A stretch of DNA of 36,466 nucleotides from a virus: positions 1 through 36,466 of IMG/VR virus record IMGVR_UViG_3300042377_000446. One strand, 5' to 3'. How positions within the stretch are numbered: the stretch's first letter is position 1; each line of letters begins with the position of its first letter. Below, one piece after another: positions 5,919 to 36,355 of this stretch. The position numbers and the translations under genes were made by a program. Under the pieces are notes generated by a model. The model did no database searches, was not told the origin of the DNA, and saw only the letters and a program-made list of their open reading frames with translations.

Positions 5919-6533
5919 ATGCAACTAAAAATTAAAAATTGTCGGTTATCATTTAGCAACCTCCGCAAGCCTTACGTGCCTAAGACGGGCGACCCAAAGT
6001 TTACCTTCACGGGTATCTGTTCACCAGATACGCAAGTGGAAGTGAACCTTGGTGGGGGTAAAGAACTACTGCCATACACCAAGTTTTCCAAAGTGGTGGA
6101 TGCTGTGTGTAAGGAGAAGTGGGGCAAGACCCCAGCCAAGCTAGAAATGTATGTCTTTGCGAAAGCAGATATGCAAGTCGGCAGTCGTGGTGCTAAGGTG
6201 GATGAAGATGGGGAATACTATGACGGTTATGACGAAAATACTTGGTTTTTTTCCGCTGGAACAAAAGTAGCTGATGCCCCCACTGGTATCATGGTCATTG
6301 ATCAAAAGCGCGAACCCCTCCCTGCTGCCGCTGGTCATCCTATCAACGGGGATTATGTCAACGCAATCATCAACGTGTTCGCTTACGAATACGAAGGTAA
6401 GAAAGGCATTTCAGCTAGCCTTGAAGCTGTGCAGTATCTCCGCAAAGGGATTCCGTTCGGTGCAGAGAAGGTTGGCAAAGATGCGTTCGATGACGAACTT
6501 GAAGACGAAGACATGGATGATGACAGCATCTAA
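5919..6533 (+). CDS. DUF2815 single-stranded DNA-binding protein
   Basis: A 204-residue protein matching DUF2815, the T7 gp2.5-like phage ssDNA-binding family. The N-terminal RLSFSNLRKP and the following G-x-P-K-F-T-F-T-G-I segment are typical of the first strands of its OB fold. The tail (about residues 190-204) is strongly acidic and ends MDDDSI. In gp2.5 and bacterial SSBs the acidic C-terminus recruits polymerase, helicase and other partners, so the same role is likely here. Related endings occur on the primase-helicase, the DUF2800 nuclease and the partial gene at the right edge. It probably coats unwound DNA during replication and recombination. The leader (ACTGTAAATATATT) lacks a Shine-Dalgarno sequence. 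Confidence 0.82.
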   Translation: MQLKIKNCRLSFSNLRKPYVPKTGDPKFTFTGICSPDTQVEVNLGGGKELLPYTKFSKVVDAVCKEKWGKTPAKLEMYVFAKADMQVGSRGAKVDEDGEYYDGYDENTWFFSAGTKVADAPTGIMVIDQKREPLPAAAGHPINGDYVNAIINVFAYEYEGKKGISASLEAVQYLRKGIPFGAEKVGKDAFDDELEDEDMDDDSI

Positions 6534-6576: not shown

Positions 6577-7020
6577 GTGAACATCACCATTGAAATCCCA
6601 GCACTTGATCGGTTATGTGCCATCCTTGAAAAAGGTGTGGCAATCCCCTCAATCAGTCACCGTGCTGTAGAAACCCCAGCTAGCCCTGCCCCTGTGGTTG
6701 CTACTCCCCAAGAGGAAACTCCAAAGGAAGAAGCACCCTACGTGACTAAGCGCAACAAGGCAAAGAAAGAGGAAACTCCAAAAGAGGAAACTCCAAAAGA
6801 GGAAACTCCAAAAGAGGAAACCCCGAAAGAGGAAACTCCGAAAGAGGAAATCACCGTTGATACACTTGCTGACCTAGCACGTGAATACATCGGTGCTAAT
6901 AGTCCTGCCCACTTGCGTAAGCTATTGGATGAAGCAGGGATTAAAGGAGAGAAAATCACCACGTGTGATAAGTCTTTCTACCCTGCCATCAAAGCAGCAT
7001 TAGTTAAAGCTATCGGGTAA
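6577..7020 (+). CDS. Hypothetical protein with KEETP repeats and a small C-terminal helical domain
   Basis: A 147-residue protein starting at GTG 6577 (MNITIEIPALDRLCAIL). It has three parts: a short N-terminal helix, a Pro/Glu/Lys linker with five exact-length KEETP units, and a C-terminal segment (VDTLADLAREYIGANSPAHLRKLLDEAGIKGEKITT). The C-terminal part resembles the small helical domain that I recall in phage proteins encoded beside DUF2815 genes, where it also follows a Lys/Glu/Pro linker. Function is unknown; a DNA- or SSB-associated accessory role is only a guess from position. It begins 43 bases after the SSB gene behind an ACCAACAACCAAC leader and is probably in the same operon. The structured RNA candidate follows it. 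Confidence 0.72.
   Translation: MNITIEIPALDRLCAILEKGVAIPSISHRAVETPASPAPVVATPQEETPKEEAPYVTKRNKAKKEETPKEETPKEETPKEETPKEETPKEEITVDTLADLAREYIGANSPAHLRKLLDEAGIKGEKITTCDKSFYPAIKAALVKAIG
6766..6852 (+). repeat. 15-bp in-frame tandem repeat (KEETP)
   Basis: Five full units of AAAGAGGAAACTCCA with only third-position changes (6766-6840) plus a partial sixth unit that leads into the C-terminal domain. The near identity points to recent expansion or contraction by slippage. The product is a charged flexible linker. Confidence 0.9.
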
Positions 7021-7059
7021 GGGTAAACCCCCAGCTAGCTAGCTAACCAAACGCTGACA

Positions 7060-7290
7060 TGCCGTTAAGTATGTCACCACACTCGCGCTCATTGCATTGA
7101 GGGCATGACTTAACCGTCGGACAGACCTCTGGCGCAAGGCATTGCATCCAAGTCAACGCGCCATGAGCGACCTGAACAGTGGGTGCGAGTGTGGTAGTTT
7201 AATCTAGGTGGTAATAACCAACGCCACTCCTCGCAAGGGACAGTAAAACGCGGTCGCAAGCCGAGTTGGTGGTGCAACTCCACCTCACAA
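7060..7290 (+). ncRNA. Candidate structured non-coding RNA with pseudoknot and twin GCAA hairpins
   Basis: This 307-base gap between genes has no convincing reading frame but strong RNA-like pairing. Stem A pairs 7064-7075 with 7112-7124 (12 pairs, one bulged G at 7117). Stem B pairs 7076-7094 with 7177-7195 (19 consecutive pairs, three of them G-U). Its 5' strand lies in the loop of stem A, so the two make a pseudoknot. A 6-bp hairpin pairs 7130-7135 with 7158-7163. Downstream, 7217-7222 pairs with 7265-7270 and encloses two hairpins of the same design (7228-7240 and 7251-7263): three pairs, a bulged U, and a C-G pair closing a GCAA tetraloop. A last hairpin, 7263-7268/7275-7280, competes with the enclosing stem. 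It matches no RNA class I know: it lacks tRNA, tmRNA and RNase P signatures, and I see no group I core. The strand is assumed from its neighbours. Confidence 0.6.
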
Positions 7291-7327
7291 CCAACACTAA
7301 CACAACCAACACTAACACAATTATTAT

Positions 7328-7537
7328 ATGGAGAAGAATGAAGAAGAAATGATGTATCTTGTAGGGCAGATTAAACAAATTGTTGACTCTGATACCAACG
7401 GTGTGCGCTACCTAGCTGAACAACTGAGTTCATACAACTTGGAAAACCAGTTATTGAAGCACGTCAAAAACCCTTTGCCAGATATGCCAGCAAACAACCC
7501 ATGCCCCGTTGATGAAAATGGGGATGCTATCTATTAA
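7328..7537 (+). CDS. Small hypothetical protein
   Basis: A 69-residue acidic protein (MEKNEEEMMYLVGQIKQIV) with an N-terminal amphipathic helix and a Pro/Asn-rich C-terminus (PLPDMPANNPCPVDENGDAIY). I do not recognise it. It follows the structured RNA with a leader of repeated ACCAACACTAACAC and ends 26 bases before the DNA polymerase start, so it is probably co-transcribed with the polymerase. No motif suggests a function. The consistent early-gene leader supports it as a real gene. Confidence 0.6.
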   Translation: MEKNEEEMMYLVGQIKQIVDSDTNGVRYLAEQLSSYNLENQLLKHVKNPLPDMPANNPCPVDENGDAIY

Positions 7538-7563: not shown

Positions 7564-9837
7564 ATGTATCACCTAGACTATGAGACATATAGCCCCGAGG
7601 ACATTAAAGTTGTCGGTGCGTTTAAGTATGCTGCACACCCCGATGCAGAAATCCTTGTTATGTCCATAGCTAGGAATGATGAACCCCCTGCCACTTGGTC
7701 TGTCTTAGATAAGAACCCTGCCGCTATTGCCCTGCTGCGGGAAGCAGTTGATTCTGGTGAACCCATTTGGGCGCACAATGCACAGTTTGAATATGCCGTC
7801 TCAAAGAACCTATTCACCAAGACGTTTGGATTTGAACCCCCAGCACTTGAGCAATGGCACTGCACAGCTAGCTTGTGCCGTTTGGCGGCAATGCCTAGTT
7901 CGTTGAAGGATGCAGGGGAATTTCTCAAGCTACCCGCACAGAAAGACACCGATGGAACACGATTGATAAACCTTTTTTGCAAACCCCGCAAACCGTCTAA
8001 GCTAAACAAAGCTACACGGATATTCCCTGCCGATGCACCCGAAGATTTCCAGAAGTTCGTGGGCTACTGCGAACGGGATGTGATAGTCGAGCGGGAGATA
8101 CATTCTATTTTAGCCCGATTGGGCAAGCAGAACCACCCGACCATAGCTAGCTACCATGCAGACCTACGGATGAACGATAGGGGCATACCGCTTAACGTCG
8201 AAGCATTGCAACATGCCCTAGCATTGATCAGTGAATATACTGAAAAGCTGATTCCCATTTTCCAATCCCAAGTAGCACACCCCACCAATAGCGTCACACT
8301 GCCCGTCACGACCACGCGCAAGATTCCTAAGCGGGTTTCCCTTTCCGAAGGGTTCAACCCCTCACAAGGGGAAATGATGAAGGTATGGATGAAGACTCAA
8401 GGTTTCTTTGGGGATGATCTACAAGCGGAAACTGTAGAGCAATGGTTAAAGAAACCCCTTGTGGATTATCTGACCCCAGCGGGGGTTGCTGCACTGCAAA
8501 CATATTCTCTAATCGGTTCGGCAGCAGTAAAGAAAATCCCAGCTATGCTGAACATGGCAGAATCCGATGGACGTGTGCGCGGGGCGTTACTGGTCTATGG
8601 TGCAGAGAGAACCCACCGTTGGACAGGCAAAGGGATTCAACCCCAAAACTATGCACGTCCCACCATTACGTTCTCCGATCTAGCTTATCAATTTATTTGT
8701 GGGAAAGCTAGCATTGCTGAGATTGAGGAAGTGTTTGGTGATTTATTCCCCGTCATGGTTAGCTGTGTGAGAAACTTCATTCAACCCCCCAACGGGCAGA
8801 TGGTGTTGCAAGCTGACTACGCTTCTATCGAAGCACGGATAGCACCGTGGTTGGTAGGTGAAGAAAAAACTTTGGATGCGTTCAGACGTAAAGAACCGAT
8901 CTATGAGAACATGGCAGCATTGATCTTTGGTGTGGTAGCTAGCATGGTTTCCAAAGCGCAACGGTTCATCGGCAAGCAAGCAGTTCTTGGGTGTAGCTAC
9001 AATATGGGCAGACCAAAGTTCAGGGCTACTTGCGAATCCTACGGGTTCGTTCCCACCGATGAAATGATTGAGGATTATAAACCTAGACATGAAGGGTTTG
9101 TAGAACGTGCGCTAGCTAAGACCCGCAAAGAAATCGAACGGAAGTATTCTGCCGATGGACGGGACGTTCCCTCTAAGTATTTGGAGGATGGTTATGTTGC
9201 CACCCGCACGATGAAGGATAATAATTGGTCAACCCTGCACCCTGAAACAAAAGCTGAGTGGATAAACTTTACCTATGATGATCTAGCTGACCGTGCCGTT
9301 TCGCGTTGGCGCATTGAGAACCCCAAGATAGTTTCGTCATGGCGGCAAATTGATGATGCTGCAAAGAAAGCTATCAACTCCCCCAAAGAGATATTCACTG
9401 TGGGCAAGTTGTCATTTGCCTATATCCCCATAGCTAACTTTGATGCGCTATGCATTAAACTCCCATCTGGTCACTACCTCGTTTACCCCCATGCGGCAGT
9501 TGTGCCTAACGAAAGTAAGGGCTGGGGGACACAGATTAAGTTTTGGGGTGTCGTGCCTAATTCGGGCGGCACTTGGGGTTGGTGCTACACCTATGGGGGC
9601 AAGCTACTTGAGAACGCAACGCAAGCCACAGCGGGGGACGTTATGCGGGAAGGTTTACTTGCAGCGGAAGCAGCAGGGTATCAACCTTTTATGCTAGTCC
9701 ACGATGAAATGTTAGCCTATCAACTTGAGGGGCAAACACATGAAGAACTTTGCAAGCTACTATGCACCATGCCCGATTGGGCGAAAGGTCTTCCTCTGGA
9801 AGCAGAAGGTTCAACGATACTACACTACAAAAAATAA
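7564..9837 (+). CDS. Family A DNA polymerase with 3'-5' exonuclease
   Basis: A 757-residue replicative DNA polymerase. The exonuclease motifs are present: D5-x-E7 (LDYETYSPED), a Exo II block (AHNAQFEYA, residues 70-78) and Exo III (YCERDVIVE, D172). The polymerase motifs follow: motif A LQADYASIEAR (D418), motif B K464-x2-R-x3-G-K with GCSYNMG, and motif C V-H713-D714-E715. Both metal-binding aspartates, D418 and D714, are intact. There is no 5'-3' nuclease domain. It probably copies the phage genome with the primase-helicase and DUF2815 protein. Phage polymerases of this length with this exonuclease start are common beside DUF2800/DUF2815 genes. No RNA polymerase gene accompanies it in this window, unlike in T7. 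Its stop overlaps the next start as TAATG. Confidence 0.95.
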   Translation: MYHLDYETYSPEDIKVVGAFKYAAHPDAEILVMSIARNDEPPATWSVLDKNPAAIALLREAVDSGEPIWAHNAQFEYAVSKNLFTKTFGFEPPALEQWHCTASLCRLAAMPSSLKDAGEFLKLPAQKDTDGTRLINLFCKPRKPSKLNKATRIFPADAPEDFQKFVGYCERDVIVEREIHSILARLGKQNHPTIASYHADLRMNDRGIPLNVEALQHALALISEYTEKLIPIFQSQVAHPTNSVTLPVTTTRKIPKRVSLSEGFNPSQGEMMKVWMKTQGFFGDDLQAETVEQWLKKPLVDYLTPAGVAALQTYSLIGSAAVKKIPAMLNMAESDGRVRGALLVYGAERTHRWTGKGIQPQNYARPTITFSDLAYQFICGKASIAEIEEVFGDLFPVMVSCVRNFIQPPNGQMVLQADYASIEARIAPWLVGEEKTLDAFRRKEPIYENMAALIFGVVASMVSKAQRFIGKQAVLGCSYNMGRPKFRATCESYGFVPTDEMIEDYKPRHEGFVERALAKTRKEIERKYSADGRDVPSKYLEDGYVATRTMKDNNWSTLHPETKAEWINFTYDDLADRAVSRWRIENPKIVSSWRQIDDAAKKAINSPKEIFTVGKLSFAYIPIANFDALCIKLPSGHYLVYPHAAVVPNESKGWGTQIKFWGVVPNSGGTWGWCYTYGGKLLENATQATAGDVMREGLLAAEAAGYQPFMLVHDEMLAYQLEGQTHEELCKLLCTMPDWAKGLPLEAEGSTILHYKK

Positions 9838-16640: not shown

Positions 16641-16654
16641 GGTGCGAGTAGTTT

Positions 16655-16670
16655 AGCTAGCTAGCTAGCT
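16655..16670. repeat. TAGC palindromic array (AGCT x4)
   Basis: AGCTAGCTAGCTAGCT is a perfect 16-base palindrome in the gap between the giant ejection-protein gene and the tail fibre gene. Similar arrays occur in other gaps at 211-216, 7033-7044, 13734-13741, 15186-15195, 36225-36238 and 36317-36346. Confidence 0.9.
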
Positions 16671-27809: not shown

Positions 27810-28490
27810 TTAGTCCTCAAAATAATTTGGGTTTCTGCTAGACTGGTATCTAGCTAGCAAGGTGGGACTGCCCCCACGTTGATCATGGTAGTTTTCCCCT
27901 GATTGATCTTGCACTGCATCGTAAAATTGAGCGTTCGGAAGTGCAACACGTTCATAGATTTCAAGGAAGTTATTCCCCATGCGAGAGTTGTCAGCTATTG
28001 CCCCACACAAGTAGTGAGCAAGCAAGCGACTTACTGCCGCAGTAAAATGAGGTGTCCACGTTGTAGGGTCTTCACTTTTGGAAATGTAGTATAGTCCAAG
28101 GTATAATTCGTTAGACCATACATCACGCCCGATAATAGCAAACCCATCTACCTTAGTTGAACCATAGACCGCAGTAGGGGTGGGGTCTTCTATTGTCACA
28201 CTGGGGATTTCACCAAGGATTAAATCTAAGACGCGCAAGCAATCTACAGGCAATGCATGAATATATTGAAAGTTACCAAATGGGGTTTCATTGACACGTC
28301 TAGCTAACGGGGTGGCACGTTTGGCGAATGTCCATCGGTGTGCGGCAAGAACCTCATTTTTAGCTTGCTCATAGAACAAAGCACAATAGCTAGCTAGCGG
28401 GTCATTCATTTGTGCTTCTTCATCCAAACGGGTGATTCTACGATCTCCGATGTGGGACAAAGCTAAATTACATACATCTACTGGACTCAT
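27810..28490 (-). CDS. Tail tubular protein A (T7 gp11-like adaptor)
   Basis: A 226-residue adaptor that joins portal and nozzle. The opening MSPVDVCNLALSHIGDRRITRLDEE, a short helix pattern with ALSHIG, is typical, as are the later LFYEQAKNEVLAAHRWTFAKR and HYLCGAIADN segments. The length matches the T7 gp11 family (about 200). It precedes tubular protein B by 14 bases and is separated from the putative decoration gene by a 14-bp hairpin, so it may be expressed at a lower level than the capsid genes. Confidence 0.88.
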   Translation of the reverse strand: MSPVDVCNLALSHIGDRRITRLDEEAQMNDPLASYCALFYEQAKNEVLAAHRWTFAKRATPLARRVNETPFGNFQYIHALPVDCLRVLDLILGEIPSVTIEDPTPTAVYGSTKVDGFAIIGRDVWSNELYLGLYYISKSEDPTTWTPHFTAAVSRLLAHYLCGAIADNSRMGNNFLEIYERVALPNAQFYDAVQDQSGENYHDQRGGSPTLLARYQSSRNPNYFED

Positions 28491-36032: not shown

Positions 36033-36355
36033 TTTATTGTCTGGTTGTTGGTAGGTAAGGGATTTTGCCCCTTGGGGAATTTACTTTTTTATATTTTTTT
36101 GGGGAAGTCAATTAGATAATTAAATGCTTAAATTTGCCCTTTTCTTGCGGGGTCGTTTTTATATTTTTAGAGGGGGAACGTCCGAATCACATCATAGCCC
36201 AGTCAACCCATGGCGGGGTGGCAGTAGCTAGCTAGCTATCTATCAGCTTTCCAGAGGAAAAGCACGCTCCGCGCCGCTTAGAATATAGCTTGCAGCACGC
36301 TGCCCCGCTGGAAATAGCTAGCTAGAAGGCTTGCAAGCTAGCTAGCACCACTTTT
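36033..36355. other. Gene-poor leader region upstream of the terminase gene
   Basis: These 323 bases hold no convincing gene. They contain AT-rich stretches (ATATAAAAA on the - strand at about 36150-36160 and 36085-36100), a perfect CCCC-TT-GGGG palindrome (36068-36077), a TAGC array (36225-36238), and a hairpin whose stem is itself TAGC sequence (36317-36346). A late promoter reading left is expected here. TTGACT occurs on the - strand near 36106-36111, but no clean -10 follows at normal spacing. Confidence 0.6.
36317..36346 (-). terminator. Hairpin after the right-edge gene, stem made of TAGC units
   Basis: GCTAGCTAG (36317-36325) and CTAGCTAGC (36338-36346) form a perfect 9-bp stem with a 12-base loop that contains the palindrome GCTTGCAAGC. 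It lies 10 bases after the stop of the partial gene on the - strand and is followed by TATTTCC, so it may act as a weak terminator. Confidence 0.4.

Follow-up and report, generated by a model that had tools for sequence, protein, structure and literature searches.

A structured noncoding RNA shared by two unrelated phages and fitting no described Rfam family

The window analysed here, 36,466 nucleotides of viral DNA (IMG/VR record IMGVR_UViG_3300042377_000446), carries a 244-base structured element at 7049-7292 that is very probably a genuine functional RNA. Because no described Rfam family fits it, the element is a new family within a known kind, the structured noncoding RNAs of phages. A second copy of 206 bases lies in an unrelated phage, and the RNA was probably acquired horizontally as an accessory element. 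It is rare in what could be searched. Preprints and subscription papers fell outside the literature search, so a description may exist elsewhere.

Results

Position of the element and comparison with known families

The preliminary description of this DNA had placed an unrecognised structured RNA in a 307-base gap between the SSB and polymerase genes. The gap has that size (7021-7327) and lies between the ORFs at 6577-7020 and 7328-7537; its location is broadly right, although the ORFs that adjoin it encode 147 aa (upstream) and 69 aa (downstream).

5919-6533: SSB gene (phrog_112), upstream of the gap
6577-7020, plus strand: 147-aa ORF directly upstream of the RNA, a conserved gene of the window's phage group
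7049-7292, plus strand: structured RNA element, with ends set where similarity to the second copy stops
7286-7320, plus strand: tandem repeat of the 15-base unit CACAACCAACACTAA, 2.3 copies (Tandem Repeats Finder)
7328-7537, plus strand: 69-aa ORF directly downstream of the RNA
7564-9837: DNA polymerase gene (phrog_17), downstream of the gap

The CACAACCAACACTAA repeat forms the A/C-rich leader of the 69-aa ORF, and its first bases overlap the RNA element. Inspection of the plus strand near the RNA revealed no promoter- or terminator-like site.

Searches with Rfam covariance models gave no match in the whole window at the gathering score, and Rfam 15 at E values up to 10 returned only a meaningless minus-strand folP match (12.4 bits against 99). 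The GOLLD, ROOL and HEARO models likewise had no match in the window. That the RNA could not be matched to tRNA, tmRNA, RNase P RNA or a group I intron, as first noted, agrees with the absence of any tRNA or tmRNA from the whole window in ARAGORN and of any Rfam match to the latter two. Comparison by blastn with 50,697 phage records and 72,556 plasmids produced nothing, or chance matches only. Folding of the whole gap gives z = -2.7, with none of 100 shuffles equally stable; for the second copy z is -3.9 (0 of 200).

A second copy in an unrelated phage

The second copy lies at 6547-6342 on the minus strand of IMGVR_UViG_3300042868_004543 (L195), and was found with a pattern of the two hairpins of the 3' domain, which matched 25 places in viral contigs. 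Aligned by blastn with 7049-7292, it gives an E value of 1e-60, with 192 of 244 positions identical and 38 gapped, most of the gaps falling in one hairpin; most of the hairpin at 7115-7163 has been lost, and the 195 aligned columns outside it contain 12 substitutions. Similarity between the window and L195 ends sharply at both ends of the element, the flanking genes differ, and the DNA polymerase, at 22% identity, is the sole protein for which a match between these phages was found. In L195 the RNA precedes a helicase gene, on that gene's strand, and ends 19 bases before the next start codon (36 bases in the window). An HNH endonuclease gene is also present in this phage. A 13-codon reading frame at 7059-7100 is unlikely to be coding, because three of its four differences from L195 change the amino acid.

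These two are the known copies of the RNA. No third copy came from two more patterns run on viral contigs or from one run on bacterial genomes: the pattern of hairpins with GCCACT, that of the joint and that used on bacterial genomes returned L195 again or chance matches, as checked in their sequences. The bacterial genomes thus contained no copy by that one pattern, and hence no host counterpart is known. As the patterns need 18-21 exact bases, diverged copies would be missed. A covariance-model search of 71 sources, 44 viral records and, from a single phylum, 291 bacterial genomes gave two weak matches of 18-19 bits, which we read as chance. The pattern GTTAAGTN{10,40}ACTTAACCG proved too unspecific as a copy finder. 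Pattern matches also arose on many planctomycete contigs (L223-L231; Rhodopirellula, Stieleria), where TCGCAAGCTGGAAGCTTACGCCACT-like units unrelated to the RNA stand in tandem.

Presence and absence among relatives

The L195 phage has a close relative, L245, which is largely collinear with it and has a helicase 97% identical; in the L245 record of 63.7 kb the 108-aa ORF and RNA of L195 are replaced by about 1.7 kb of different sequence, with no copy of the RNA elsewhere. The RNA was likewise missing from four phages related to that of the window (polymerase 59-67%), in records that may be fragments, so that absence there is not proof. Horizontal acquisition is suggested by the second copy in an unrelated phage, the sharp ends, the different flanks and the near relatives that lack the RNA.

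The gene order shows a local rearrangement of the window where the RNA sits, because both neighbouring ORFs are placed differently in relatives. Counterparts of the 147-aa ORF precede the exonuclease gene in the four relatives (tblastn identities of 35-46% in L163, L164, L166 and L167), and in three of the four (L001-L003) the counterpart of the 69-aa ORF, at 41-44% over about 35 aa (tblastn), directly follows the SSB gene. We considered whether the 147-aa ORF is accessory cargo travelling with the RNA, and discarded the idea on the tblastn result, which makes it a regular gene of the phage group with another position in relatives. A 15-bp tandem repeat at 6766-6850 within this ORF encodes KEETP units; relatives sought through these repeats gave short, mostly low-complexity matches. 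In L001-L003 the gap from the SSB gene to the 69-aa counterpart (about 2660-2800) holds a G+C-rich hairpin at the site taken by the large RNA in the window, in L001 for example CCACTCTGCCCA-GCAT-TGGGTGGAGTGG.

A 19-pair stem conserved in both copies

The central feature of the element is a stem of 19 pairs, three of them G-U, which was found exactly as first described.

7076-7094, plus strand: 5' strand of the 19-pair stem (helix search and shuffles), with one change in L195
7127-7167, plus strand: variable hairpin (7127-7135/7158-7167, 7164 bulged; sequence, fold and alignment), mostly missing in L195
7168-7176, plus strand: conserved joint CRACCUGAA, preceding the 3' strand (alignment)
7177-7195, plus strand: 3' strand of the 19-pair stem (helix search and shuffles), identical in L195

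When the gap was shuffled 1,000 times at the dinucleotide level, unbroken helices reached 15 pairs at most. All 19 pairs are kept in L195, where the sole change turns C7078-G into U-G. The G-U pairs, which had been taken as a sign of selection on RNA rather than on a DNA repeat, exist only in the plus-strand RNA, in keeping with that view, and L195 retains elements of the fold.

A crossing helix and its competitors

The 5' strand of the long stem does sit within a second helix, as had been proposed. The 3' strand of this helix, originally given as 7112-7124 in a 12-pair stem, is in fact 7102-7114, GGCAUGACUUAAC with G7107 bulged, the earlier coordinate being off by ten. The pseudoknot formed in this way gains one two-sided compensating change, although as a pairing of five bases with the loop of a hairpin (H1) and not as a 12-pair stem.

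7056-7062/7069-7075, plus strand: hairpin H1, loop 7063-7068 (CGUUAA), directly 5' of the 19-pair stem
7064-7068, plus strand: 5' side of the crossing pairing, paired with 7110-7114
7110-7114, plus strand: 3' side of the crossing pairing, shared with a competing small hairpin

H1 occurs in the minimum-energy folds of both copies; its stem bases are identical in the two, and its loop differs at 7067. The crossing pairing is GUUAA/UUAAC in the window and GUUUA/UAAAC in L195, so that A7067-U7111 becomes U-A, whereas the 12-pair version loses U7070-A7108 in L195. An H1-type hairpin of 7-8 pairs (7055-7062/7069-7076) uses the same bases as the 12-pair helix and has nearly the same energy, -9.2 against -9.3 kcal/mol for the latter folded alone. 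By our estimate the 12-pair helix would also be sterically tight, with 0 and 7 unpaired bases around a helical strand of 19 bases. Because H1 and the 12-pair stem share bases, H1 with the five-pair loop pairing is the arrangement favoured by the comparison.

Overall, 50 of the 51 drawn pairs are kept in this one homolog and one is broken. With one two-sided change between two sequences, shuffles reach the pair statistic in 246 of 500 cases, a result compatible with chance. The compensating change sits where four of five bases (7107-7111) differ from L195, and the alignment at 7107-7114 is ambiguous, with a gap in blastn and none in MAFFT. Moreover, a small hairpin, UUAAGG/CCUUAA, present in the L195 minimum-energy fold, competes for 7109-7113; the pseudoknot thus rests on a single event, and it could be one state of a switch.

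The near-invariant 3' domain

The 3' domain contains two hairpins of like sequence and several competing folds.

7206-7285, plus strand: 3' domain, with an outer stem (7206-7211/7280-7285), an inner stem (7217-7222/7265-7270), two hairpins and competing folds
7228-7240, plus strand: hairpin UCC-U-C-GCAA-G-GGA (sequence), equally a 7-base UCGCAAG loop
7251-7263, plus strand: hairpin CGG-U-C-GCAA-G-CCG (sequence), with the same UCGCAAG loop
7268-7284, plus strand: possible T-arm-like hairpin GGUGG-UGCAACU-CCACC (sequence), competing with the outer and inner stems

Two hairpins of one design within a closing stem had been described, and the sequence NNN-U-C-GCAA-G-NNN and the six-pair ACCAAC/GUUGGU stem are indeed there; yet this is not the preferred fold, since with the extra outer stem it reaches -19.5 kcal/mol, whereas the minimum-energy alternative has -27.0 (ViennaRNA), a gap of 7.5. 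The domain hardly varies between the copies, with one difference in 114 bases (7170-7283) against eight in 63 (7049-7111; Fisher p 0.001), and for this reason covariation says nothing on the two-hairpin fold. No other pair of nearby hairpins with the same UCGCAAG loop was found in about 1.5 Mb of other loci.

T-loops have a U and an A at set positions. The two loops may be read either as GCAA closed by C-G, the U being bulged, or as loops of seven bases (UCGCAAG) whose U and A take the T-loop positions. The hairpin at 7268-7284, which is still paired in L195 (G7268-U7284), would be a third, T-loop-like in appearance.

Discussion

In both phages the RNA lies among replication genes, on the coding strand and before different genes. 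The reading we prefer, though with somewhat less than even confidence, is that of a self-contained accessory RNA passed from phage to phage, which would be co-transcribed with its neighbours, processed and active in trans. Since it showed neither a promoter nor a terminator of its own, it would be transcribed as part of the replication-gene mRNA, and then either cut out or left as a stable fragment, its survival being favoured by the long stem. It might act on a target that the two hosts share, for example a host protein, a ribosome component or a defence factor, with the near-invariant 3' domain as the acting part and the variable hairpin as a spacer.

The strongest competing reading is a leader that acts in cis on the next gene, riboswitch-like or controlling translation, whose 3' domain would hide or free the start region by switching between pairings. 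It has this standing because a start codon follows 19-36 bases after the end of either copy, and we consider it possible but less probable. With no terminator, the RNA would stay on the mRNA unless cut, and GUUGGUG (7265-7271) can pair either with the inner ACCAAC or with the CACUAAC copies of the leader (7295-7301 and 7310-7316). Neither phage uses Shine-Dalgarno sequences at its gene starts, so leader structure could matter. On the other side, every intergenic RNA of a compact phage precedes a gene closely, and the L195 leader is without the competing repeat. The downstream genes, the 69-aa ORF and the helicase, are unrelated, and relatives carry them in the absence of the RNA, which weakens this alternative and speaks against a leader specific to one gene.

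A self-cleaving or catalytic RNA, for example of HDV-like topology, is distinctly unlikely. Theta ribozymes of that type are known in phages (PMC10879173), and the P1/P2/P3/P4 order can be drawn in the window with agreeing strand order and nesting: P1 as 7064-7070/7108-7114, P2 as the long stem, P3 as 7095-7097/7105-7107 with an L3 of seven bases, and P4 as the variable hairpin. P1 then has seven pairs starting with G, and a C stands first in the joint after P4. However, L195 breaks the P3 pair 7095-7107 (C-G to U x C) and the last P1 pair 7070-7108 (to U x C), no P1.1 is apparent, no Rfam ribozyme matches at E 10, and a P2 of 19 pairs, far longer than in those ribozymes, with a 5-base J1/2 would by our estimate misfit the compact fold. 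We therefore set the HDV-like ribozyme aside: the strand order, the P2 and the P4-like hairpin of the pseudoknotted core fit, but the second copy, with its broken P3 and shortened P1, does not.

Equally unlikely is a selfish mobile RNA or DNA element without benefit to the phage, such as an intron-like or guide-RNA-like remnant. The sharp ends, the unrelated sites, the presence and absence among relatives and the HNH gene of the L195 phage are in its favour; yet no terminal repeats were seen, no nuclease gene adjoins either copy, each genome has one copy without a match to intron or HEARO models, and whole gene-block swaps by recombination account for the difference between L195 and L245. HEARO RNAs are omega-type guide RNAs beside HNH proteins. 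The element resembles them as a structured RNA in varied genomic contexts, but it matches no Rfam model, no IscB-like nuclease was seen beside it, and it has no repeat copies.

An incidental structure, either an inverted repeat of the DNA or a fold arisen by chance in a spacer and carried along by recent recombination, would suit two copies with mostly invariant bases and a possibly fairly recent transfer, but is very unlikely in view of a stem that exceeds all 1,000 shuffles, the two z values, G-U pairs confined to the plus-strand RNA, and changes concentrated in the 5' part with 1 of 51 pairs broken.

GOLLD and ROOL are structured noncoding RNAs of diverse phages and prophages to which no function has been assigned (PMC12286853), and the element, likewise phage-borne, structured and noncoding, is of comparable status. 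They are longer, with many GOLLD RNAs above 800 nt, and are often found near tRNA islands, whereas the element has about 244 nt in a window without tRNA, is rare among the searched sequences and has no Rfam match. Extending our preferred reading, we regard as rather improbable the idea of a new class of phage RNA that unrelated phages trade and use in counter-defence or host takeover, whose switchable pseudoknot presents the near-invariant 3' domain and its two identical UCGCAAG loops to a host target. As phage genomes are compact, a noncoding element of 244 bases that is kept and exchanged is likely to be useful to the phages. Belonging to no Rfam family and having defined ends, it is short enough for synthesis and direct testing.

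Other features of the window

The Shine-Dalgarno core is found in none of 30 leaders of the window, which are A/C-rich with 9% G, and the gene starts of the L195 phage are similar, which suggests that the hosts of both phages start translation without Shine-Dalgarno pairing. ACCAAC occurs in six of the 30 leaders, against a shuffle mean of 1.4; a count as high arose in 6 of 2,000 shuffles.

The palindrome TAGCTA is about tenfold over-represented in the window (212 on both strands against about 21) and is often extended to CTAGCTAGCTAG; TAGCTAGC has 47 matches against 0.5 in shuffles. The TAGCTA sites lie within genes and between them (for example 7033-7045, 16654-16669, 28387-28398 and 36225-36238), the motif is below expectation in the relatives with polymerases at 59-67%, and it resembles a genome-wide motif of the HIP1 type. 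The contig ends (1-208 and 36374-36466) consist of perfect or near-perfect tandem repeats, of 9 bp x 23 and 12 bp x 7.8, at which the assembly probably stopped.
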